Source of the DNA: Nostoc sp. CENA543
GTDB taxonomy: Bacteria > Cyanobacteriota > Cyanobacteriia > Cyanobacteriales > Nostocaceae
Length of the DNA: 64,000 bases
Direction of reading: 5' to 3'
Assembly: GCF_002896875.1 (NCBI RefSeq)
Contig: NZ_CP023278.1
Span: 2,046,001 to 2,110,000 of the forward strand
Numbering within the stretch: the first letter of the stretch is position 1; each line of letters begins with the position of its first letter. Below, piece by piece: positions 783 through 17,313 of the stretch. Under the pieces are notes generated by a model. That model ran no database searches. It was not told the DNA's origin and saw only the letters and a list, made by a program, of their open reading frames with translations. The translations under genes were made by a program, and so were the position numbers.

Positions 783-3587
783 TTACAACCAATTGCCGAT
801 TAACACGTAAGCAGACCAAAAGCTGGGTGCTTGGTAATTGGGATGGCGTAGTAGTTTGAGTTGAGCTAGTTGCAAAGCCTCGGCTTTAGTAATTTTGTTG
901 TTTCTGAGTTCCCGATAAAATTCACCGACAAATAAGGCGGTTGATTCATCATCAATTTGCCATAGAGAGGCTACGGTACTACGTGCGCCGGCTCTGACTG
1001 CTGCTCCTGCTAGTCCCAGGGCGGCGCGATTGTCGCCTACGGCAGTTTGGCAGGCACTTAAAACTAGTAGTTCTATGGGTCTTGTCCTGGTTTGTTCTTG
1101 ATTGCGGAGTAGGTTATCAAATTCTTTGACTTTGATAGGGCCATCGTTAGCTAGAATAAACGTTTCTTCGGCAATAGAACTAAATTGACCATGAGTGGCT
1201 AAATGCACAACGTTAAATGAAACGGTATTTACCTCTTTTTCTAGGGCTTCACGGGTAAATTGCTGATCTAAAAGACTGGTGGTGGAGACTCCAGCACTGG
1301 CAATTAGGTCTACTTCTGATTTGATGGCGGGTAGGGGGGCAAAGTTAGGAAACCCGGCTGGGGGCTGAGTTAATCCAGCAGTTAAGGCTCTAAGTTGTTG
1401 TCTTTGCAGGGGTTGGGGGTCGAGCAGCTGTAACCCGACGCTAAGGGCGATCGCATATTTTTCGATTAAATATTGCTTACCATCGTAAAGAACCGCCATC
1501 GGTATGTTACGCAACGCACCATCTAAGACAAACACCAATGTCTTGACACCACTGGCGGCTAATTGCTTTTCTATGGGTTGGAGTAGCCAGTTATAAACCT
1601 GTTGCGATTGGGTTTTGATAACGTTAGTAGTGGTGGGATTAATCAGATTTTTCCTGAGTTCTGTGAGAACTTGGTTGACTTCTGATTGAGAGACCTTAGC
1701 ACTGTAATGCTGGAGTGGTTGATGAGGTATTTTGACAATAACTTGTAATTGTTGCGGCAAAATGATGGGATACAGAATGGCGGTGGAGGGGTTATCTTGA
1801 TCTACGACTTGATCAATCAGCACACTTTCACCTTGAAGACAGGCTTCCTGAAAGAAGTTATCTAATTCTGCTAATTGCAAAGCTTCAATGCGTCGACGGG
1901 CTTTATCTAAAGTCTTGTCATCTAACTTTGCCACCGGAGACTGTAACAATAACTCTACTGATTGGCGATAGACGGGTTCTACACTGTCGCGAAAGTTAAA
2001 CTGCACATCTTGGTTAACAGCTACTAAGTCATTTCTGAGAGATTTTAATGTTTCTACAGCCGCATCATAAGCTGCGATCGCTCCATTAATATTATTTTGC
2101 GCCCACAGCAATCTCCCTAACTGCCACTCTAAGCGATAACTAATATCAGAAGCATTACTACTCTGTGCCAAAACTAATCCCTGTTGGGTGACATTTTGTG
2201 CTTCTGTCCATTGTTGATTGTTCTCATACAAATTTCCCAAGCTTAACAACCCATAAGCTTCAGCTTGTTTATCTCCCAAAGTGCGGGCTTGTTGGATGGT
2301 ATTGGCTAAGAATTGGGCCATTTGTTGGGGATTGGGGACTGGGGATTGGGAATTGGGGACTGGGGATTGGGGACTGGGGATTGGGTTAAATTGATCCCCC
2401 TGCCCCCTGCCCTCTACACCCTGCCCCCTGCCCTCTACACCCTGCCCCCTCTCCTCTTCTACCTGCCCCCTGTCCTTTCTCTGCCCCCTAGCTAATTTCA
2501 TCAAACTTTGAGCATAGTTAATCTGGGCATAGATGGCTGCACGACTGGGGGGGAGTTGGTTGAGTTGGGGGGGAATTGAGGTGAGCAGATTTTGTGCTTC
2601 TGATAGTTGTTGAGTGTCTATCAGCAAACTAAGTTGATTGAGTCGGGCTTGAATTTGGGTGAGGGGTGAGGCAGATGGCTCAATTTGTTGATAATAGTTA
2701 ATAGCGGTGGCGGCTTCCTGTTTGGCTCGTATGCTGTTACCTAAGCTTTTAGAACGGGAACTATCAGCCCGTGCGTTGTTGCCTAAACTTAATAAACTTA
2801 CTCCCACTTCTCCAGGTAATTGCAGGCGTTGGGCAATGGTTAAACTTTGCTCTAAAACAGTACGCGATTGGGTCAAATCACCAATTACCATCAGAGCATC
2901 ACCCAGCGATCGCAATCCTACAGCTTTTTCTCTCGAATCTGGTTGTGCTTGCAATTTTTGGTTAACTGCTAACAAAATCTGTACTGCACGCCGATAAAAG
3001 CCTTGGTTACGCCAAGCTTGAGCTTGGTTAATCTGCGATCGCACTTCGCCAATGGGGTAATTGATTTTTTGATAAATCTCTGCGGTTTGTTGCCAAGTTG
3101 CTAAAGCTGTCTCTATCTTGCCTGTTGCTAATTGTAAACGTCCTTGAATATCTAGGGTTTGGGCGAGGATTTGCAGAGTTTGCTGGTTCTTTTCGGCGGG
3201 AAGTAATTCCAGACTATTTTTGATTGCTGTTTGTGCGGCTTGCCAGTCACCAAGTTGTTGATAAGCTAGGGACAAGTTACTCAATGTAGCAGCTAATTTC
3301 AGCCTGTCTCCTTGTTGCTTATACGCCTGGGCTGCCTGTTGTAATACTTGCACTGCCTCAGCGAAACGCCCCGCATCATATAAAGTTTTCCCTTGATCTA
3401 TCAATAAATCATTCTGGGATTTGGCTAACTTTACCAAAGATGGGGAAGCAATAGTGTGATTGAGAGCCAACACTGGTAAATTGACTGTCAACATCAACGC
3501 CACAAGAAAGTAAATGAATAGATTGATTTTGATTTTTGGCTTTTTGAATGGGAAATAACGATCAAAAACCCGAAAAAGTTTATTCAT
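783..3587 (-). CDS. TPR-repeat CHAT domain protein (caspase-like peptidase)
   Basis: About 934 aa from the ATG at 3585-3587. A GTG at 3617 is in frame, but the ATG start gives a proper basic-hydrophobic signal or anchor (MNKLFRVFDRYF, then a hydrophobic run). Residues about 60-510 are TPR-like helical repeats. The C-terminal 300 residues form a CHAT domain with the caspase-type dyad: His about 799 in HLATHG and Cys about 846 in LVLSACQT. CHAT domains are caspase-like proteases that often act as effectors. Between the TPR repeats and the CHAT domain lies a low-complexity insert (bases about 2329-2495) encoded by STRR heptamers, rich in Gly-Gln-Gly-Val-Glu and Pro-Ser-Pro. The sigma-like gene lies upstream on the same strand. 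Substrate unknown. Confidence 0.88.
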   Translation of the reverse strand: MNKLFRVFDRYFPFKKPKIKINLFIYFLVALMLTVNLPVLALNHTIASPSLVKLAKSQNDLLIDQGKTLYDAGRFAEAVQVLQQAAQAYKQQGDRLKLAATLSNLSLAYQQLGDWQAAQTAIKNSLELLPAEKNQQTLQILAQTLDIQGRLQLATGKIETALATWQQTAEIYQKINYPIGEVRSQINQAQAWRNQGFYRRAVQILLAVNQKLQAQPDSREKAVGLRSLGDALMVIGDLTQSRTVLEQSLTIAQRLQLPGEVGVSLLSLGNNARADSSRSKSLGNSIRAKQEAATAINYYQQIEPSASPLTQIQARLNQLSLLIDTQQLSEAQNLLTSIPPQLNQLPPSRAAIYAQINYAQSLMKLARGQRKDRGQVEEERGQGVEGRGQGVEGRGQGDQFNPIPSPQSPVPNSQSPVPNPQQMAQFLANTIQQARTLGDKQAEAYGLLSLGNLYENNQQWTEAQNVTQQGLVLAQSSNASDISYRLEWQLGRLLWAQNNINGAIAAYDAAVETLKSLRNDLVAVNQDVQFNFRDSVEPVYRQSVELLLQSPVAKLDDKTLDKARRRIEALQLAELDNFFQEACLQGESVLIDQVVDQDNPSTAILYPIILPQQLQVIVKIPHQPLQHYSAKVSQSEVNQVLTELRKNLINPTTTNVIKTQSQQVYNWLLQPIEKQLAASGVKTLVFVLDGALRNIPMAVLYDGKQYLIEKYAIALSVGLQLLDPQPLQRQQLRALTAGLTQPPAGFPNFAPLPAIKSEVDLIASAGVSTTSLLDQQFTREALEKEVNTVSFNVVHLATHGQFSSIAEETFILANDGPIKVKEFDNLLRNQEQTRTRPIELLVLSACQTAVGDNRAALGLAGAAVRAGARSTVASLWQIDDESTALFVGEFYRELRNNKITKAEALQLAQLKLLRHPNYQAPSFWSAYVLIGNWL
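2329..2495. repeat. STRR heptamer tract inside the CHAT coding region
   Basis: Tandem GGGGATT/GGGGACT heptamers (about 2329-2390), followed by repeated CCCTGCCCCCTGCCCTCTACA-like units, run through the CHAT gene without breaking the frame. They encode a Gly/Gln/Glu then Pro/Ser linker that the second CHAT protein of this window lacks. Confidence 0.85.
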
Positions 3588-3747
3588 AAATATGGGCAAC
3601 CAGCAGATGACAACCACAGGAATAGCCGATGATTAGTTTTAAGCAACTAGAATAATGTTGCCATGAGCATCGGCAATCCCAGCATTGTTTCAACAATTGT
3701 TTGACTCTCCCGTCGCTTTTAAGCAAGAGATAGCTAAATGATTTGTA

Positions 3748-8159: not shown

Positions 8160-10826
8160 ATGAAACTTCTCTATCATGTTGGCATCGCTGTATTATTTGC
8201 CACATCTAATTGTTTATTTAGCAGCATTACTTTGGCTGAAGCGATCGCCACAGATAAGACTCTATCTACAGATGTTACCTCGAATGATGGGATTAATTTC
8301 ACTATTTCAGGTGGTAGTCAAGTAGGTAGTAATCTTTTTCATAGCTTTAGCCAATTTTCTGTGCCTAAAAACGGCTCGGCAAATTTTAATCATAGTGCCG
8401 ATATTCAAAATATTATTAGTCGAGTTACTGGTAACTTACCTTCTACTATTGATGGTAAAATTCAGGCTAATTCTCATGCCAATCTCTTTTTAATTAATCC
8501 CAATGGCATTATTTTTGGCCGCCATGCTCAATTAGAAATCGGTGGTTCTTTTTTTGCTACTACTGCTAACAGTTTGAAATTTGCTGATGGTACAGAGTTT
8601 TATGCTTCTCCCTCTCAAATTTCGCCTCTATTGAGTGTTAGTGTTCCCATTGGTTTACAGTATGGTAATCGCCCTGCCGCTATTCAATCGCAGGCAGTTC
8701 AATTGACTGTACAACCAAATTACACATTGGCATTAATTGGTGGTGAAGTTAATATCAATGGTGGTCAATTACAGGCGGAAAATGGGCGAATTGAACTAGT
8801 GGGAGCAGGTGCTGGTAGTGTAGTGGGATTACAACTAACACAGAACCAATCTCAACTCAGTTTACCTAGCCATTATGCAAGAGCAGATGTTTTCATTAGT
8901 AATCAAGCTCAACTAACTACCAATGGGGATGGGGGCGGTAGTATTCAACTTACGGGCAAGCAGATCACTATTGAAGATTCTCGCATTAGTGCGGAAACAA
9001 CTGGGTCTATTTCTGGAGCTAATATTACTTTAAACGCATCAGACAAGGTAATAGTTACAAGTAGTAGCACTGAGCAAACTTTTATCAATGGGTTATTTGC
9101 TGAAAATGCTGGTAGTGGTGATAGTGCAGGAATCACTATTAATACTAGAAAACTGCAAGTTAATGGAGAAGCGCGCATCTCCACTGCAACTTTTTCTGAC
9201 TCCACAGGAACAGGAGGAGATTTAACTATTAATGCTAGTGATGCAGTGAAATTAAACGGTGTTGATTCACTAGATTATTCTCTGTTTACAGGGATATCAA
9301 CAGATACCCACGGTAGCGGAATCGGGGGAAATTTAACTATCAACACGGGAAAATTAATTGTGGAAAGTGGGGCGCAAATATCAGCCGCTACTTTTAGTGA
9401 AGCTCAAGGTGGCAATTTGACTATTAATGCTGCTGAATCTGTAGAATTATTAGGTGTTTCCACTAGTGATTATTTAGCCAGTGGTTTGTACACAGCAGTG
9501 CAAGAATCAGCTAGTGGACAGGCGGGGAATTTAACAGTTAATACACAAAAGTTATTTATCCGTGATGGGGCGCAAATTTTTGCGGGTACTTCCGCCCAAG
9601 GAAATAGCGGGGATATAACTATTAATGCTAGTAGTTCTATCAATGTTAGTGGTATTTCCCCTATTTTTCAATTTGCAGGTGGAATATTCAGTAGTACAAA
9701 TCTTGATTCCAAGGGTAATTCTGGAAATATCACTATTAATACTCAGAAATTAACTGTCCAAGATGGAGCAATCATTGCTGTTGAGACATTGGGTTTAGGT
9801 AAGGGAGGACTACTGACTATCAATAGCAGTGACTCTATAGAGTTATTAGGACAAGGGGCTTTGATTACATATGGAGAAAATGCGGCTAATCCCACACCAT
9901 CATTTAGCACTATCTCTGCTGGCATTTTTAACAAAGATAATCCCAATGATGCGGGGAGTGTAGAAATTAATACGAATAAATTATTGATTCTTGGCGGTTC
10001 TCGTTTAAGGGTGGACAATGCGGGACGAGGTAAAGGTGGCAACCTGTTAGTAAGAGCGAATTCCATATTGCTGGATAATGGGGGAAATCCTGATCAGGAT
10101 GCAGGGGGGATTTTAGCCACTACTAAGTCTGGTGAAGGTGGTGATATTACACTCCAGGCGAGAGATATTTTGTTGTTGCGTAATGGTAGCCGGATTACTA
10201 CGGATGCTAAAGATGGTAGTGGTAACGGTGGCAATATCATAATTAATACGAATATATTGGTGGCTGCGGAAAATAGCGATATTACGGCGAATGCTATTCA
10301 GGGACGGGGTGGAAATATTGAAATCACTGCTAAAGGAATTTTTAATATTGAATTTCGTCCAGAATTGACTTTAAAAAGCGATATTACTGCTAGTTCTCAG
10401 TTTGGCTTGAGTGGAAATGTAGAAGTCAATACTTTAGCCGCCGATCCCAGTAAAGGAATTGTCGAGTTACCAGTTCAACCCAATGATGCTTCTGTATTAA
10501 TTAAGCAAGGCTGTGGTGCGAAAAATCCTGAAAAATTCAGTCGGTTTGTAGTGACTGGACGGAGTGGACTACCACAAAATCCAGAGGTGGCTTTGGGTAG
10601 TGACACGATTTTGGAAGATGTGCAGACAGTTCCGATTCATAGTAGCAGCGATCGCACTTCATCTACTATTGTTTCTCAAAGTCCAGCTCCGAATTACCCT
10701 AATGAAATTATCGAAGCCCAAGGGTTAGTAGTCACCCCCCAAGGCAATATTCTGCTGACAACCCAAACACCAGTTACTACCTCTCATGGTTCCGTATTTA
10801 CACCAGTGACTTGTCCGGCTCTGTAA
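8160..10826 (+). CDS. Filamentous haemagglutinin N-terminal domain exoprotein (TpsA-like)
   Basis: 888 aa. A signal peptide (MKLLYHVGIAVLFATSNCLF, ending about residue 27) is followed by a haemagglutination-activity/TPS secretion domain at about 35-190, including NSHANLFLINPNGIIFG. A long right-handed beta-helix follows, built from repeats such as GGNLTINT-x-KL-x-V-x-DGAQI. The C-terminal region has Cys residues (QGCGAKNPEKFSRF and a terminal VTCPAL). TpsA proteins are exported through a TpsB/ShlB outer-membrane pore; none is encoded in this window. The likely role is a surface adhesin or secreted matrix protein. It is transcribed away from the YtxH block. Confidence 0.85.
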   Translation: MKLLYHVGIAVLFATSNCLFSSITLAEAIATDKTLSTDVTSNDGINFTISGGSQVGSNLFHSFSQFSVPKNGSANFNHSADIQNIISRVTGNLPSTIDGKIQANSHANLFLINPNGIIFGRHAQLEIGGSFFATTANSLKFADGTEFYASPSQISPLLSVSVPIGLQYGNRPAAIQSQAVQLTVQPNYTLALIGGEVNINGGQLQAENGRIELVGAGAGSVVGLQLTQNQSQLSLPSHYARADVFISNQAQLTTNGDGGGSIQLTGKQITIEDSRISAETTGSISGANITLNASDKVIVTSSSTEQTFINGLFAENAGSGDSAGITINTRKLQVNGEARISTATFSDSTGTGGDLTINASDAVKLNGVDSLDYSLFTGISTDTHGSGIGGNLTINTGKLIVESGAQISAATFSEAQGGNLTINAAESVELLGVSTSDYLASGLYTAVQESASGQAGNLTVNTQKLFIRDGAQIFAGTSAQGNSGDITINASSSINVSGISPIFQFAGGIFSSTNLDSKGNSGNITINTQKLTVQDGAIIAVETLGLGKGGLLTINSSDSIELLGQGALITYGENAANPTPSFSTISAGIFNKDNPNDAGSVEINTNKLLILGGSRLRVDNAGRGKGGNLLVRANSILLDNGGNPDQDAGGILATTKSGEGGDITLQARDILLLRNGSRITTDAKDGSGNGGNIIINTNILVAAENSDITANAIQGRGGNIEITAKGIFNIEFRPELTLKSDITASSQFGLSGNVEVNTLAADPSKGIVELPVQPNDASVLIKQGCGAKNPEKFSRFVVTGRSGLPQNPEVALGSDTILEDVQTVPIHSSSDRTSSTIVSQSPAPNYPNEIIEAQGLVVTPQGNILLTTQTPVTTSHGSVFTPVTCPAL

Positions 10827-11289: not shown

Positions 11290-11565
11290 ATGGCTGTGGA
11301 AAAAGAATTAGTAAAACCTGTAGACTCACTGATTGAAGACCTCACCGATGAGGAACTATCTAGCTGTTTTGGGGGTTGTGGGTGGTATAACCAACGAGGA
11401 AATGAATGCGAAGTGGAAACAATTAATGGCAGATATAAGATTACAGAGTATTTCTTCATCAATGGCAAATTGCATTCTTCATCCTATATCACTGATTCCA
11501 AAGCTGGTTTGTGGTATGACCCTAATGGCTCAAACAGATATAAACACCATTTACGCAATATGTAA
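11290..11565 (+). CDS. RiPP precursor peptide 1, double-glycine leader
   Basis: 91 aa. The leader carries LIEDLTDEELSSCFGG, ending in Gly-Gly at residues 28-29, the classic signature of bacteriocin-type/NHLP-Nif11-type leaders cleaved by C39 peptidases. The predicted core of 62 residues starts with Cys (CGWYNQRGNECEVET) and ends with YDPNGSNRYKHHLRNM. That tail is shared with precursor 2 (YDPNGSIRY, then RNI). Only two Cys are in the core. It lies 124 bp before precursor 2 and upstream of a fused YcaO cyclodehydratase on the same strand, so it is the probable substrate. The modified residues and the final product are unknown. Confidence 0.75.
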   Translation: MAVEKELVKPVDSLIEDLTDEELSSCFGGCGWYNQRGNECEVETINGRYKITEYFFINGKLHSSSYITDSKAGLWYDPNGSNRYKHHLRNM

Positions 11566-11673
11566 CAAATAAATATTTCATAAACCAGATAACAAGTGAT
11601 GATGTCATTGATTGCCAGAGCTAAATTCACCTGATTAAAATAAACTAGATATTAACTATAATTTGACATCAAA

Positions 11674-11680
11674 AAGGTGA
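11674..11680 (+). promoter_or_regulatory. Ribosome binding site AAGGTGA for precursor 2
   Basis: AAGGTGA is 9 nt before the ATG at 11690, which supports that start over the in-frame ATG at 11702. Confidence 0.6.
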
Positions 11681-11689
11681 TTTTAATTT

Positions 11690-11953
11690 ATGCCTCATAA
11701 TATGGCGATCGCATCATCACAAAATCTACAGATGCCTGAGAATTTAATTGCAGATTTGTCGGATGAAGAATTGGCAGCAGTCACTGGTGGCTGTAATATT
11801 CAAATCACGACTCAGAAGCGTGAAATTACAGTGATAGTAGCAGAACTACCGCAACTAGATAAAGGCTTTGTCAATGTAGATAATAGTGCTGTGAGTGTAG
11901 CTTATGACCCTAATGGCTCAATTCGCTACCAAAGTTGGATAAGAAATATTTAA
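11690..11953 (+). CDS. RiPP precursor peptide 2, double-glycine leader
   Basis: 87 aa. The leader ends NLIADLSDEELAAVTGG (Gly-Gly at 33-34), very close to the leader of precursor 1 and to NHLP/Nif11-type leaders. The core of 53 residues begins with Cys35 (CNIQITTQKREITV), has no other Cys, and ends YDPNGSIRYQSWIRNI. The core centres of the two precursors have diverged, while leader and extreme C-terminus are conserved. This suggests that both ends are recognised or modified. The fused YcaO gene begins 427 bp downstream. Confidence 0.75.
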   Translation: MPHNMAIASSQNLQMPENLIADLSDEELAAVTGGCNIQITTQKREITVIVAELPQLDKGFVNVDNSAVSVAYDPNGSIRYQSWIRNI

Positions 11954-12380
11954 ACAACCATCGGCTGTAACAATTAAGCAGATTCATCTTTCTTTGTTAT
12001 CGGCTATGATAGGCTTTGTGTGATCAATCTATCATTGGCGATCGCATTGTTTTACTCACAGTGAATGACGGGTATAAAGTAACACTCCCGTAGACTGTAG
12101 ACATCATATTTTTGAACTAGATTCTGTTCCCCGTTAGTGACTTCCCTAGATTCAGTATTTCAGGAATCAAATCATACCATTTCACGAAAAACCTGATACA
12201 GATGTAAACCCTGAAAGTTTTGCTGCATCTAAGTTTTTTAATTGCGTAAAGCCTGCGGCATAGCTGCGCTTAGAGCGTAGCGGGACGTTAGTCCATTGCG
12301 AATTGCGAATTGCGAATTGCGAATTGGTATCAGATTCCTATATCAACATAAATACTTTTCTCCTTCCTCATATCTTTGTG
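11954..12380. other. Gap between precursor 2 and the YcaO gene, with dispersed repeats
   Basis: No gene is supported. It contains a GC-rich dispersed palindromic repeat around 12247-12296 (GCCTGCGGCATAGCTGCGCT, then GCGTAGCGGGACGTTAGTCC) directly followed by an AATTGCG tandem tract (12301-12327). The same pair, in reverse order and strand, occurs at 31205-31310 and in related form at 61825-61950. Confidence 0.7.
12301..12327. repeat. AATTGCG tandem heptamers
   Basis: Four tandem AATTGCG copies. They fall within an N-terminal extension of the YcaO reading frame (start at 12303), which is why that start is rejected in favour of 12381. Confidence 0.85.
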
Positions 12381-14615
12381 ATGAAGCCAAAGTTTAAAGA
12401 GTGCTTTCATGTGGAAGTCTGTCCCCCTCGCACTGTCTTCTTACTAAGTGAAAAGGGACATTTTGTACTGAACGGGTATTTGTACTGTCTTTTAGCACCT
12501 CTACTCACAGGCGTGCATACAGTAGCAGAAATAGCTGCCCATCTTGAGGGTAAAGCGAAGATTGATGAAATTACTTATGGTTTAGAACAGTTAGAACGGA
12601 AAGGCTATATTACTAATACAGATAGCTTACCACCTGCTGAGTCTGCTTTTTGGGAATTGCTCAACCGCAATACGGAGATAGTTGATCAACGCCTGCGGTC
12701 AACTAAAGTTAGTATTACGACATTTGGTAACGTGACTGGGGAAGTCTTAGAAACCATACTTGCATCCCTCAATGTTGGAGTTGCTGATGCGGGGGAATTT
12801 AGTGTTGTACTGACAGATGATTATTTGCAACCAGGGTTAGCAGACTTCAACCGTAAGGCTTTACAAGCAAATCGTTCTTGGTTATTAGTAAAACCTATAG
12901 GTGGCGTGATTTGGATTGGCCCGATGTTTCGTCCTTATCAGACGGGATGCTGGGAATGTCTCGCGCAACGACTGCGAATTAATCGTGAAGTTGAGTCTTT
13001 TATTCAAGAACAAAAACAAAGCAACGAACCTTTATCGGTAGCGCGCGCGGCTTTAGCCTCTACTTTACAGACAGGACTGAATTTGATAGCGACAGAGGTG
13101 GCTAAATGGGTGACTCATCCAGAACACCATTCTCTGGAAGGTACTATTCTCACTTTTGATTTAATCAATCTCAATTTACAACGTCATTTTGTCGTGCGTC
13201 GTCCCCAGTGTCGTTGTTGTGGTGAATTGATGCACTTGGCGCATACACAACCGCAACCATTGCTATTAACTGACAGGAAGAAGCAGTTAGTTGATGATGG
13301 TGGATATCGGCAATATTTACCTGAGTTAGCGGCGGCACAGTATGAACATCATATCAGCCCCATTACTGGGATTATTAAGCAATTATTTCAACCATTTCCC
13401 TATAATGAGCTAGTCCACGCCTATGTTGCAGAACATTGTTTACCTATAGCTAGTAAGGAATTAAAAGATTTAGGTAAGGCGGCGCGTCCTAAAAGTTTTG
13501 GCAAGGGTAAAACGGCAGCACAGGCAAAAATGAGTGCTGTGGGAGAAGCCATAGAACGCTACTCAGGTACTTACACAGGGGAAGAAATCACCATCAAAGC
13601 CACCTATGCCCAGTTGGGAGAATTAGCAATTCATCCCCATGACTTAATGCAGTATAGTGCAGATCAGTACCGCGATCGCCAGATTTGGAATCAGCAACAC
13701 CATATTATTCAATGGGTTGCAGATCCCTTTAATGCCAGTGAAGTGATTGATTGGACACCTATTTGGTCACTAACTCAGCAAAAATTTAAATACATTCCTA
13801 CAGCCTATTGTTATTATGGCTATCCTCTGGCGGAAAATCACTGCTTTTGTTATGCAGATACTAACGGCACATCTGCGGGTACTTGTCAAGAGGAAGCCAT
13901 ACTGCAAGGATTCATGGAATTGGTAGAAAGGGATGCGGTGGCGATGTGGTGGTATAATCGCATATCTCGACCGGCGGTGAATTTGCAGAGTTTTGCAGAA
14001 CCCTATTTAAATCATCTGCAAACCTACTACCAAATTTACGGCAGAGATTTTTGGGTTTTAGATATCACAACTGATTTCAATATTCCTACTTTTGCTGCCA
14101 TTTCCAGAAAAGTGAACCATCAACCGGAAGATATTCTCTTTGGTTTTGGGACTCATTTTGATGCCAAAATTGCCCTATTACGTGCCGTGACAGAAATGAA
14201 TCAGATGGTATTTCTATCACAAGGTGCAAATCCCCATGCGTCAGCTAAGTTTACGCGTCCAGATATGCAGAATTGGTGTATGACTGCGACATTAGAAAAT
14301 CAACCTTACTTAGCTCCCAATCAGAGTTTAGCAGCGAAAACCTATGCAGACTATACACCTTATTGTAGTGATAATCTGCTGACAGATGTTTTAGCCTGCG
14401 TTGATTTAGCAGCGCGACAAGGTTTAGAAATGTTGGTGTTAGACCAAACACAACCAGATATTGGGATGTCTGTAGTCAAGGTAGTTGTTCCTGGTTTGCG
14501 CCACTTTTGGGCGCAGTTTGCACCTGGTAGGCTTTATGATGTCCCCGTAAAGTTGGGTTGGTTAAAAACACCATTACCAGAAAGCGAACTGAACCCAATT
14601 CCGATGTTTATTTAA
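12381..14615 (+). CDS. Fused RRE/E1-like/YcaO azoline cyclodehydratase (TOMM biosynthesis)
   Basis: 744 aa from ATG 12381 (MKPKFKECFHVEV). Residues 1-85 resemble the winged-helix peptide clamp (RRE). About 110-300 form the E1/ThiF-like C-protein part with two Cys pairs for structural zinc, CWEC at 190-193 and CRCC at 277-280. About 330-744 is the YcaO domain with the ATP-binding blocks KMSAVGEAIERYSGTY and CQEEAILQGFMELVERDA. The C-terminus is PIPMFI, resembling the PxPxP tail of YcaO cyclodehydratases. The fused C-D order and length match PatD/TruD/LynD, which make azolines from Cys/Ser/Thr using ATP. No PatA/PatG protease, dehydrogenase or exporter is nearby, and the precursors are not PatE-like. 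Confidence 0.88.
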   Translation: MKPKFKECFHVEVCPPRTVFLLSEKGHFVLNGYLYCLLAPLLTGVHTVAEIAAHLEGKAKIDEITYGLEQLERKGYITNTDSLPPAESAFWELLNRNTEIVDQRLRSTKVSITTFGNVTGEVLETILASLNVGVADAGEFSVVLTDDYLQPGLADFNRKALQANRSWLLVKPIGGVIWIGPMFRPYQTGCWECLAQRLRINREVESFIQEQKQSNEPLSVARAALASTLQTGLNLIATEVAKWVTHPEHHSLEGTILTFDLINLNLQRHFVVRRPQCRCCGELMHLAHTQPQPLLLTDRKKQLVDDGGYRQYLPELAAAQYEHHISPITGIIKQLFQPFPYNELVHAYVAEHCLPIASKELKDLGKAARPKSFGKGKTAAQAKMSAVGEAIERYSGTYTGEEITIKATYAQLGELAIHPHDLMQYSADQYRDRQIWNQQHHIIQWVADPFNASEVIDWTPIWSLTQQKFKYIPTAYCYYGYPLAENHCFCYADTNGTSAGTCQEEAILQGFMELVERDAVAMWWYNRISRPAVNLQSFAEPYLNHLQTYYQIYGRDFWVLDITTDFNIPTFAAISRKVNHQPEDILFGFGTHFDAKIALLRAVTEMNQMVFLSQGANPHASAKFTRPDMQNWCMTATLENQPYLAPNQSLAAKTYADYTPYCSDNLLTDVLACVDLAARQGLEMLVLDQTQPDIGMSVVKVVVPGLRHFWAQFAPGRLYDVPVKLGWLKTPLPESELNPIPMFI

Positions 14616-15923: not shown

Positions 15924-17207
15924 CTATAAATTGACACATCCTAAAGGCTGATTTTGAGAATTAGTGATTTCATACTCTTTACCGTCGAAATTCAAGGTGA
16001 ATAGGGATGATGACTGCAAAAACTTGATAAAACTAGAACCAAGTTTTAACTTTTTGATAATTGCATTCGGAGATTGCCCACATTTTCTTTGTAATTCGGT
16101 GCTGAGTTTAGATACAGATAATTTATCTTGAGCAGATTTGGTATAATTGGCAATAATTTCTAGCAGTATTTTTTCTAACTCTGTTTGGGAGTTAATTTCT
16201 TGAGGTGAAGCTTTTGTAGTTGGTGTAGTTGTCTGGGTGTAGTTATCTGGTGGTAATTTCTTTTCTTCTTTAGCTGGTTGTTCATACTGCAATTCTAAAT
16301 GACATCGCTCTTGAAATAGATGGGCGATCGCCACCAGATTATTTAGTTTCGCCTCAATAGATTCTTGCTCAGATTTAATCAGGCTTTCTATTTTATGTAC
16401 CACATCTGCCAAGGAAGGAATTTCACTAGATGACGACAGAGAATAGAAAATATATTTTCCAGTATTGCGATTTTCTATATGTAAATTCTGACCTTGTCTG
16501 CGTACCCAATACACTATCAAACCCTGATTTTGCAGGGCATTACATAAATGATTTAAAATACCATCTCCAGAACAGACAAATATTTCCCTAGCATGAGGGT
16601 AATAACTTAAAATATTTGCACCTACAGTCATCATTTTCGCATCTGCACCATCTTTGCCATCAGGTACATGAACAAGTTGATAACCACGTTCATATAAATC
16701 CACATCTTGCTTGCCCAGACTAGTATTTTTCCAGTTAGCAAAGCCTATTTTGACTTGGAGAGGATATTTGCCTACACTAGCTAGAAAATTTTCAAGTTCA
16801 GCATTAATTTTCAAGTTCTCCACATCCAATAATAATACAGCTATGCCTGATGTTTCTGAAGTTGATTTCTGTTGAATTTGCTGCTGAATTCTCTGCACAA
16901 ATTCCCAGACAGCCGGAGATTCTAAATAACCACTATCTAAGAAACTCCGGATTATTTCTTCCAAGAAAATGCCACTCAAACCACCATGAAGATTTTGTGG
17001 TTGAGATGTTTCTGTCATCAGTTCTGGTGCTGGGGAAACTGATATGTGATTATGTCCATTGCTATCAGTTATCAACTCATCTGCGGGAGTATGAGGTAAT
17101 ACATACTCTAGAAATTGTTTACCACAATTTTTACACAGGTAATTTTGCTTACCCTTGCGATGACCATTCTTGCGGTATGAGGTTGATGCACAATGAGGAC
17201 ATTTCAT
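15924..17207 (-). CDS. Zinc-ribbon / NYN (LabA-like PIN) / LOTUS domain protein
   Basis: 427 aa from ATG 17207. Residues 1-36 carry an InsA/IS1-type zinc ribbon (CPHC...CKNCGKQF). About 115-280 form a NYN/PIN-like nuclease domain with conserved acidic residues (LLLDVENL, DGADAKMM, CSGDGIL). The C-terminal 85 residues (LEKILLEIIANYTKS, KLSTELQRKCGQSPNAI) look like an OST-HTH/LOTUS RNA-binding domain. NYN-LOTUS proteins are predicted RNases acting on structured RNA. The extra transposase-like zinc ribbon at the N-terminus is unusual. The gene diverges from the cytochrome b gene. Confidence 0.8.
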   Translation of the reverse strand: MKCPHCASTSYRKNGHRKGKQNYLCKNCGKQFLEYVLPHTPADELITDSNGHNHISVSPAPELMTETSQPQNLHGGLSGIFLEEIIRSFLDSGYLESPAVWEFVQRIQQQIQQKSTSETSGIAVLLLDVENLKINAELENFLASVGKYPLQVKIGFANWKNTSLGKQDVDLYERGYQLVHVPDGKDGADAKMMTVGANILSYYPHAREIFVCSGDGILNHLCNALQNQGLIVYWVRRQGQNLHIENRNTGKYIFYSLSSSSEIPSLADVVHKIESLIKSEQESIEAKLNNLVAIAHLFQERCHLELQYEQPAKEEKKLPPDNYTQTTTPTTKASPQEINSQTELEKILLEIIANYTKSAQDKLSVSKLSTELQRKCGQSPNAIIKKLKLGSSFIKFLQSSSLFTLNFDGKEYEITNSQNQPLGCVNL

Positions 17208-17313
17208 TTTATTCTTCAGCACTGCTTGTGCTGATGATTACCTCTAAGTATGTGATTTGAAAAGTTTGCTTCACATTTTTTAATATAATTGTCTCACCCT
17301 AACATTTAATTCT

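Follow-up and report, generated by a model that had tools for sequence, protein, structure and literature searches.

A likely azoline-type YcaO peptide locus of Nostoc sp. CENA543 that adjoins an exoprotein gene and has relatives with Peptidase_S74-tailed precursors

Analysis of a 64,000-nucleotide stretch of the Nostoc sp. CENA543 genome (contig NZ_CP023278.1, positions 2,046,001 to 2,110,000, hereafter the window) was centred on two small precursor genes, P1 and P2, and on the gene of a fused YcaO enzyme located behind them. Judging from its sequence, the locus likely encodes an azoline-type pathway for ribosomally synthesised and post-translationally modified peptides (RiPPs), and we favour, with moderate confidence, a YcaO peptide pathway organised around a surface exoprotein of the two-partner secretion (TPS) type, whose gene adjoins the precursors. 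The genes and motifs, the Peptidase_S74 (S74) domain carried by precursors of related loci, the remnant of this domain in one relative and the conserved trio of exoprotein, precursor and enzyme were read directly from the sequences. An S74 follower together with an exoprotein partner is a new architecture for a YcaO peptide pathway; among the literature matches listed, checked mainly at the level of titles and abstracts, no account was found of an S74-bearing RiPP precursor or of a YcaO/TPS locus. The features of the window locus are as follows.

8160..10826, + strand: TPS (TpsA-like) exoprotein, 888 aa (PF05860, E 1e-58; TIGR01901)
11290..11565, + strand: precursor P1, type B, 91 aa (open reading frame, AAGG 5 bases before the ATG, dN/dS)
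11341..11358, + strand: P1 leader motif LTDEEL, of the form L(x)4L (family conservation)
11371..11379, + strand: P1 Gly-Gly followed by Cys, where C39 cleavage is predicted and an azoline could form
11515..11538, + strand: P1 tail YDPNGSNR (Ser and Arg invariant in the aligned family)
11690..11953, + strand: precursor P2, type A, 87 aa (open reading frame, AAAGGTGA 9 bases before the ATG, dN/dS)
11756..11773, + strand: P2 leader motif LSDEEL, of the form L(x)4L (family conservation)
11786..11794, + strand: P2 Gly-Gly followed by Cys (family comparison)
11903..11926, + strand: P2 tail YDPNGSIR (the S74 domain starts a few residues later in 16/25 family members)
12381..14615, + strand: fused leader-binding and YcaO cyclodehydratase, 744 aa (TIGR03882, TIGR03604, PF02624; LynD/TruD/MusD; tree)

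The unit reaches upstream as far as the exoprotein gene at 8160. A first reading made from the sequence alone (the sequence-only reading) had bounded the locus at 11290-14615, which proved too narrow, the adjoining exoprotein gene having been overlooked. It had correctly described two neighbouring small open reading frames with a common leader (LTDEEL..GG-C and LSDEEL..GG-C are both present), a common C-terminal tail (YDPNGSNRY in P1, YDPNGSIRY in P2) and a fused PatD/TruD-like YcaO enzyme behind them. P1 most likely starts at ATG 11290, as suggested by the AAGG five bases before it, ATG 11269 being a possible alternative; for the enzyme, alignment to relatives makes ATG 12381 (744 aa) the most likely start, rather than TTG 12303. 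A short tandem repeat of gcgaatt is located just 5' of the YcaO gene (window 12297-12326).

The enzyme scored 156.1 bits against TIGR03882 (cut-off 36.9) and 279.5 bits against TIGR03604 (cut-off 219.25), and was also above the cut-off of PF02624. Its sequence matches in the PDB were MusD (2.9e-226), LynD (7.5e-218) and TruD (2.9e-208); LynD and TruD were aligned over nearly the whole length, and MusD in two stretches. Scanning the genome collection yielded 233 confirmed YcaO relatives, of which the best 80 were combined with the enzymes of G010, G015, G030 and G061 and of the window into a tree of 85 rows (quick method, no bootstrap). The window enzyme was placed inside a cyanobacterial clade of 14 rows, with a support of 100 in the Shimodaira-Hasegawa-like approximate likelihood ratio test (SH-aLRT). 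The other members are Nostoc sp. CMAA1605 (L028), G010 (L021), G015 (L022), G030 (L025), Mojavia pulchra (L029), Calothrix membranacea (L030), Nostoc carneum (L031), Nostoc linckia FACHB-104 (L032), Nostoc sp. 106C (L033), Aphanothece sp. (L034), Calothrix brevissima (L035), Nostoc sp. T09 (L036) and G061 (L150). A cyanobacterial YcaO/azoline-type RiPP locus, found mostly in Nostocales, is supported as a locus type, in agreement with the sequence-only reading, azolines being the predicted chemistry.

Partnership with the exoprotein is suggested by the distribution of the TPS domain PF05860, which covers residues 29-264 of the window exoprotein (E 1e-58). This domain was found at 14/14 clade loci versus 1/19 cyanobactin-like loci and 0/52 other YcaO loci, the control loci being shorter on average (16-18 kb vs 21 kb) and many of the 52 not cyanobacterial; the sole cyanobactin-like match sits about 8 kb from the enzyme. 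The 14 neighbouring exoproteins formed a clade of their own (100/99) in a tree of 33 rows, which also included three rows from other clade loci and 16 other TPS rows of the window genome, part of which are fragments of a single gene. When exporter, CHAT and ShlB families were set aside along with the trio, a script divided the 14 loci into four sets without further common gene: window/L028/L021; L022/L029/L030/L031/L032/L033/L035/L036; L025; and L034/L150. The exoprotein-precursor-enzyme trio has therefore been kept together across some changes in surroundings. A ShlB-type gene was not found at window positions 2381-24616 (tblastn at 1e-6), and the partner of the exoprotein may lie elsewhere; such a gene (PF03865) stands beside the exoprotein in L034, and tblastn with it matched L034, L030 and L032 only (3/14).

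A more general link between TPS proteins and RiPPs was considered and dropped: a LanM locus of the same genome has a TPS gene nearby, but this was the case for only 3/21 LanM stretches (the own-genome stretch and 20 stretches around the best of 43 further matches). In that own-genome stretch (L117 3409-14001, C1:841408-852000), the genes for a C39 ABC exporter, a HlyD-like protein and a TPS exoprotein come after that of the LanM lanthipeptide synthetase (PF13575, PF05147). At C1:2215712-2241633, the genome also holds some ten TPS exoprotein genes in tandem.

Genes of the P1/P2 family were present at all 14 clade loci, mostly of Nostocales, with one or two copies each, so that the occurrence of tail homologues beside fused YcaO genes, proposed earlier as a check, was borne out. 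Searches by tblastn at 1e-6 with the precursors retrieved 13/14 clade loci (the divergent L034 was missed), and 0/19 and 0/52 control loci. P1 and P2 are 37% identical in alignment, and the longest word common to their cores (six residues) was equalled in 2/20,000 shuffles. A nucleotide pattern covering YDPNG and part of the codon after it matched twice in the 7.2-Mb window genome, at P1 and P2, and its control, read backwards, once; the pattern was matched in 12/99 genomes, among them five in which a precursor-YcaO locus was identified. The precursor set (n=25) was made of 24 sequences at clade loci and one orphan; P2-like members were called type A and P1-like members type B, a split of our own to which L034 is a poor fit on either side. 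Precursors were single in G061 and L034 and transcribed divergently from the exoprotein gene.

The leader motif L(x)4L was found in 24/25 precursors, and L(x)4I in one. The two Leu of this motif matter for leader recognition by LynD and MprC, according to PMC12455567. The residue following Gly-Gly was Cys in 20, Thr in four and Leu in one of the 25 precursors. All 25 precursors have the tail Ser and, two residues further on, an Arg (24/24 in the alignment); this Ser follows Gly in 24 of them and Gln in one. The suggestion of the sequence-only reading that the conserved Ser may be a modified residue is supported by this invariance. In 4/12 type-B precursors (L022, L030, L031 and L032), the Cys after Gly-Gly and the tail Ser are the only Cys/Ser/Thr residues of the predicted product.

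Other genomes contributed family members outside clade loci. The orphan (L023 9652-9918, in G015) is a P1-type precursor, 60% identical to P1 and a good family member, with only a short weak YcaO match in the 20 kb read. In L026 (G057), positions 9560-9799 hold a P2-like open reading frame in which leader and tail are both degraded, apparently a relic, and no convincing YcaO match was seen in the 20 kb read. An order-wide search with precursor A3 matched 12 of 388 genomes: G000, G010, G015 and G061, G406 (two full-length matches), G084 (the same locus as L034), G113, G281 and G264 (S74 proteins without leader), G301 and G211 (short peptides whose match is leader-like, the stretch read showing no YcaO match) and G228. 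With the G061 precursor as query, a class-wide search of 388 genomes found the form with both leader and S74 domain in G061 only; the five other matching genomes aligned from residue 71 or later, outside the leader.

At 9/14 clade loci, precursors of 169-197 residues run past DPNGSxR into an S74 domain. PF13884 (cut-off 22 bits) was matched with 40.3-45.5 bits by three relatives' precursors and with 49.3 bits by that of G061, and the remaining long precursors align with those matching it. The word SDxxxKE, containing a Ser-Lys dyad, was found in 16/25 precursors. According to PMC8326128, Ser and a Lys five residues on form the self-cleavage dyad of MYRF (S587/K592) and endoNF (S911/K916); PMC8326128 and PMC3742443 describe S74 as a trimerising chaperone of triple-beta-helix proteins, place the MYRF cut just before the dyad Ser and report that self-cleavage requires trimerisation. 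By analogy, the conserved tail would be the stretch directly before the S74 cut, and products of 46-54 residues (type A) and 40-45 residues (type B) are predicted. The tail motif of the sequence-only reading is thus conserved as described, but at these nine loci it is the stretch preceding a self-cleavage domain, which was invisible from the window. When one S74 domain was compared by sequence with the PDB, nothing significant was obtained; the assignment rests on PF13884 and the dyad. The structure prediction of the S74-bearing precursor A4 (first row L030) had a mean predicted local distance difference test score of 48.3 and a predicted template modelling score of 0.23.

Nine precursors lack S74 (two each in the window, L028 and L021, one each in L029 and L034, and the orphan L023) and stop 4-9 residues after the tail Arg, the window genes 8 residues after it. 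PF13884 matched neither P1 nor P2, nor anything in the whole window genome at E 1e-5. In Mojavia pulchra (L029 9734-9900), a decayed S74 remnant follows the stop codon of the precursor (tblastn E down to 3e-7), its two recognisable pieces lying in different frames. As G061 and G030, near the base of the clade, carry S74, loss of the domain in three lineages would be the simplest history.

Known S74 proteins of the intramolecular chaperone auto-processing (ICA) type, such as endoNF, phage tail fibres and MYRF, share PF13884 and the S-D-x-x-x-K dyad with the relatives' precursors; here, however, the domain is borne by a short double-glycine peptide beside a YcaO enzyme and not by a large fibre, and it appears to have been lost in the window lineage. 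The precursors could nevertheless be small secreted trimeric fibre-like proteins, with the tail as a beta-turn stalk leading into S74 and an enzyme performing a minor or non-azoline modification. The chaperone role described for S74 in PMC8326128 and PMC3742443 would suit such proteins, as would cores that look strand-rich by eye and the word EPEGGWR near the cut of an unrelated S74 protein (L120). However, the tail persists in lineages that lost S74, the precursor family stands beside the enzyme at 14/14 clade loci, and [DN]P[NDE]G was found within 25 residues upstream of the cut in 0/12 distinct S74 proteins outside the YcaO clade, a set of pattern-found proteins that excludes loci missed by the script pattern, among them L142 and L184-L192. 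On the whole, we regard this explanation as unlikely.

Kinship with cyanobactins has to be weighed as well. The 14-row clade is joined in one group by 19 rows of cyanobactin type and two further rows (support 98, in the quick tree without bootstrap), yet it remains a separate clade. A fused cyclodehydratase that groups with PatD/TruD/LynD, the L(x)4L leader motif and cyanobacterial hosts are shared with cyanobactin systems and their PatE precursors. The statement of the sequence-only reading that the precursors are not PatE-like was thus half true, since they hold a motif that is bound by cyanobactin and proteusin cyclodehydratases. Unlike cyanobactin loci, the clade loci are all without a PatG-type protease, macrocyclase or oxidase (14/14), and their precursors have a Gly-Gly leader, one core each, an S74 follower at 9/14 loci and a TPS neighbour. 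A reduced cyanobactin pathway could be imagined in which PatA/PatG-type proteases with genes elsewhere excise the heterocyclised peptides and the tail serves as an AYDG-like macrocyclisation signal; the grouping with cyanobactin-type enzymes, the alignment to LynD/TruD over nearly the full length, the common leader motif and an AYD in P2 speak in its favour. However, PatG parts (oxidase/nitroreductase, S8 and C-terminal domains) matched 0/14 clade loci in a search covering the loci rather than whole genomes, the PatG family of 12/19 cyanobactin-like loci was likewise found in 0/14, and S74 occupies the position of a cyanobactin follower. Membership in the cyanobactins was rejected on the lack of PatG parts, S8 included, at the 14 loci, no PatA-specific probe having been used, and the reduced pathway is decidedly unlikely.

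Two other peptide families show partial likeness. MusD, which we take to be a proteusin enzyme, is the best PDB match of the window enzyme. The L(x)4L motif also occurs in MprC substrates, as stated in PMC12455567; clade leaders, however, had 29-46 residues in those measured, versus 81 in MprE according to the same source. No match to the NHLP or Nif11 families was obtained in the family scans made. P2 weakly resembles the CTB family of bacteriocins (NF038167, 20.6 bits), a filing that was discarded with P2 below the cut-off of 32, P1 without match and 0/9 tested precursors of relatives matching.

The enzyme might also form thioamides or amidines instead of azolines. YcaO enzymes are able to make both, and a TfuA gene exists elsewhere in the window genome. 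However, TfuA is unlinked to the locus there and had no match in 3/6 genomes holding the locus, on which ground thioamide chemistry was judged unlikely; moreover, the enzyme has a fused leader-binding domain and its closest solved relatives (MusD, LynD and TruD) are cyclodehydratases. Taken together, thioamide or amidine formation seems very unlikely.

Selection bears on whether the window locus still makes a product. By simple counting, dN/dS was 0.09 against L028 and 0.14 against L021 for the YcaO gene, 0.24 and 0.20 for the TPS gene, 0.18 and 0.21 for P1, and 0.40 and 0.18 for P2 (dS >1 for both precursors against L021). These values (0.09-0.40) indicate purifying selection on all four genes and suggest that function is maintained. 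P1 and P2 could otherwise be decaying leftovers after loss of a working S74, at a locus without product, a view in line with the lack of S74 in the window and its visible decay in Mojavia. Against it stand the dN/dS of P1 and P2, which ranged from 0.18 to 0.40 over four comparisons involving two relatives, that of 0.09-0.14 for YcaO, and leaders and tails that are intact in the window, L028 and L021, which makes such decay highly improbable.

Concerning export, the sequence-only reading had reported no exporter, which is true for the window locus but not more widely: a C39-peptidase ABC exporter gene was found at 5/14 clade loci, and an 86% homologue of the G010 exporter sits elsewhere in the window genome (C1:3459661, about 1.4 Mb from the locus). 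Beside the latter, a large gene has a start resembling that of the gene after the exporter in G010. The G061 exporter is just 29% identical to that of G010.

From these data we infer azoline chemistry, the residues that may be modified, self-cleavage, an export route and the exoprotein partnership, which can be assembled into a pathway of four steps. The N-terminal domain of the fused enzyme would bind the L(x)4L leaders of P1 and P2, and the enzyme would use ATP to convert one or two Gly-Cys/Thr/Ser sites to azolines, the best candidates being the tail Ser in DPNGSxR and the Cys or Thr that directly follows Gly-Gly. At 9/14 loci, the C-terminal S74 domain would then trimerise and cleave itself at the Ser-Lys dyad, leaving a product of 40-54 residues that ends shortly after DPNGSxR; in the window lineage, S74 would have been lost, each gene ending 8 residues after the tail Arg, near the old cut site. 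The C39-peptidase ABC exporter encoded elsewhere in the window genome may cut the leader at Gly-Gly and secrete the peptides. Outside the cell, these may act together with the TPS exoprotein of the adjoining gene, either decorating this surface beta-helix protein or serving it as ligand or cargo.

Several observations weigh against this pathway. A cyanobactin-type dehydrogenase was not found at the 14 clade loci. L034 has Leu after Gly-Gly and Gln before the tail Ser, so that the favoured context is universal at neither site. Conservation of the tail could be structural, since DPNG is also a plausible plain beta-turn and a looser word, EPEGGWR, stands in a comparable position near the cut of the unrelated S74 protein L120. 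No S74 remnant was seen near the window precursors, with one chance-level match elsewhere in the window, and loss of S74 in the window lineage therefore rests on the tree and on Mojavia. As to export, no leader protease was recognised in the window locus, the exporter was not seen at 9/14 clade loci, and C39 exporters are frequent among YcaO loci as a whole (13/52 other YcaO loci). The conserved neighbourhood is partly simple common descent: seven loci share a gene after the enzyme, and setting aside the trio alone, with exporter, CHAT and ShlB counted as surroundings, leaves two sets, one of 13 linked loci and L025. Confidence in a pathway built around the exoprotein is maintained because the contrast in TPS occurrence (14/14 vs 1/71) and the exoprotein tree stand.

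Some other genes of the surroundings are worth recording. The shared gene directly 3' of the YcaO gene in seven clade loci (L022 13883-14824 and six others) codes for a PAS-GGDEF protein (diguanylate cyclase). A TPR-CHAT (caspase-like) protein is encoded at window 783-3617, and CHAT matches occurred in 6/14 clade loci. At window 15924-17222, a 432-aa protein has an IS1/IS1595-type zinc-binding N-terminus and a long remainder without strong family match in that scan.

A bolder version of the proposed pathway, which we put forward tentatively and hold to be doubtful, is that of a RiPP class whose ancestral precursors bear a folding and scissor module of viral-fibre type. YcaO-modified peptides, assembled into homotrimers by S74, would be released through the Ser-Lys dyad just after a modified DPNGSxR, the leader would be removed by C39 and the peptide mounted on a dedicated TPS surface protein, and the window lineage would make the same product without the scissor. 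Leaders and followers of RiPPs are normally removed by dedicated proteases. If true, a trimerising self-protease built into the precursor would offer a new means of terminating and shaping a ribosomal peptide. The four precursors that narrow the possible Cys/Ser/Thr sites of the predicted product to two make this chemistry directly testable, and the lasting link with a TPS exoprotein suggests that some modified peptides may be parts of cell-surface structures rather than diffusible antibiotics.

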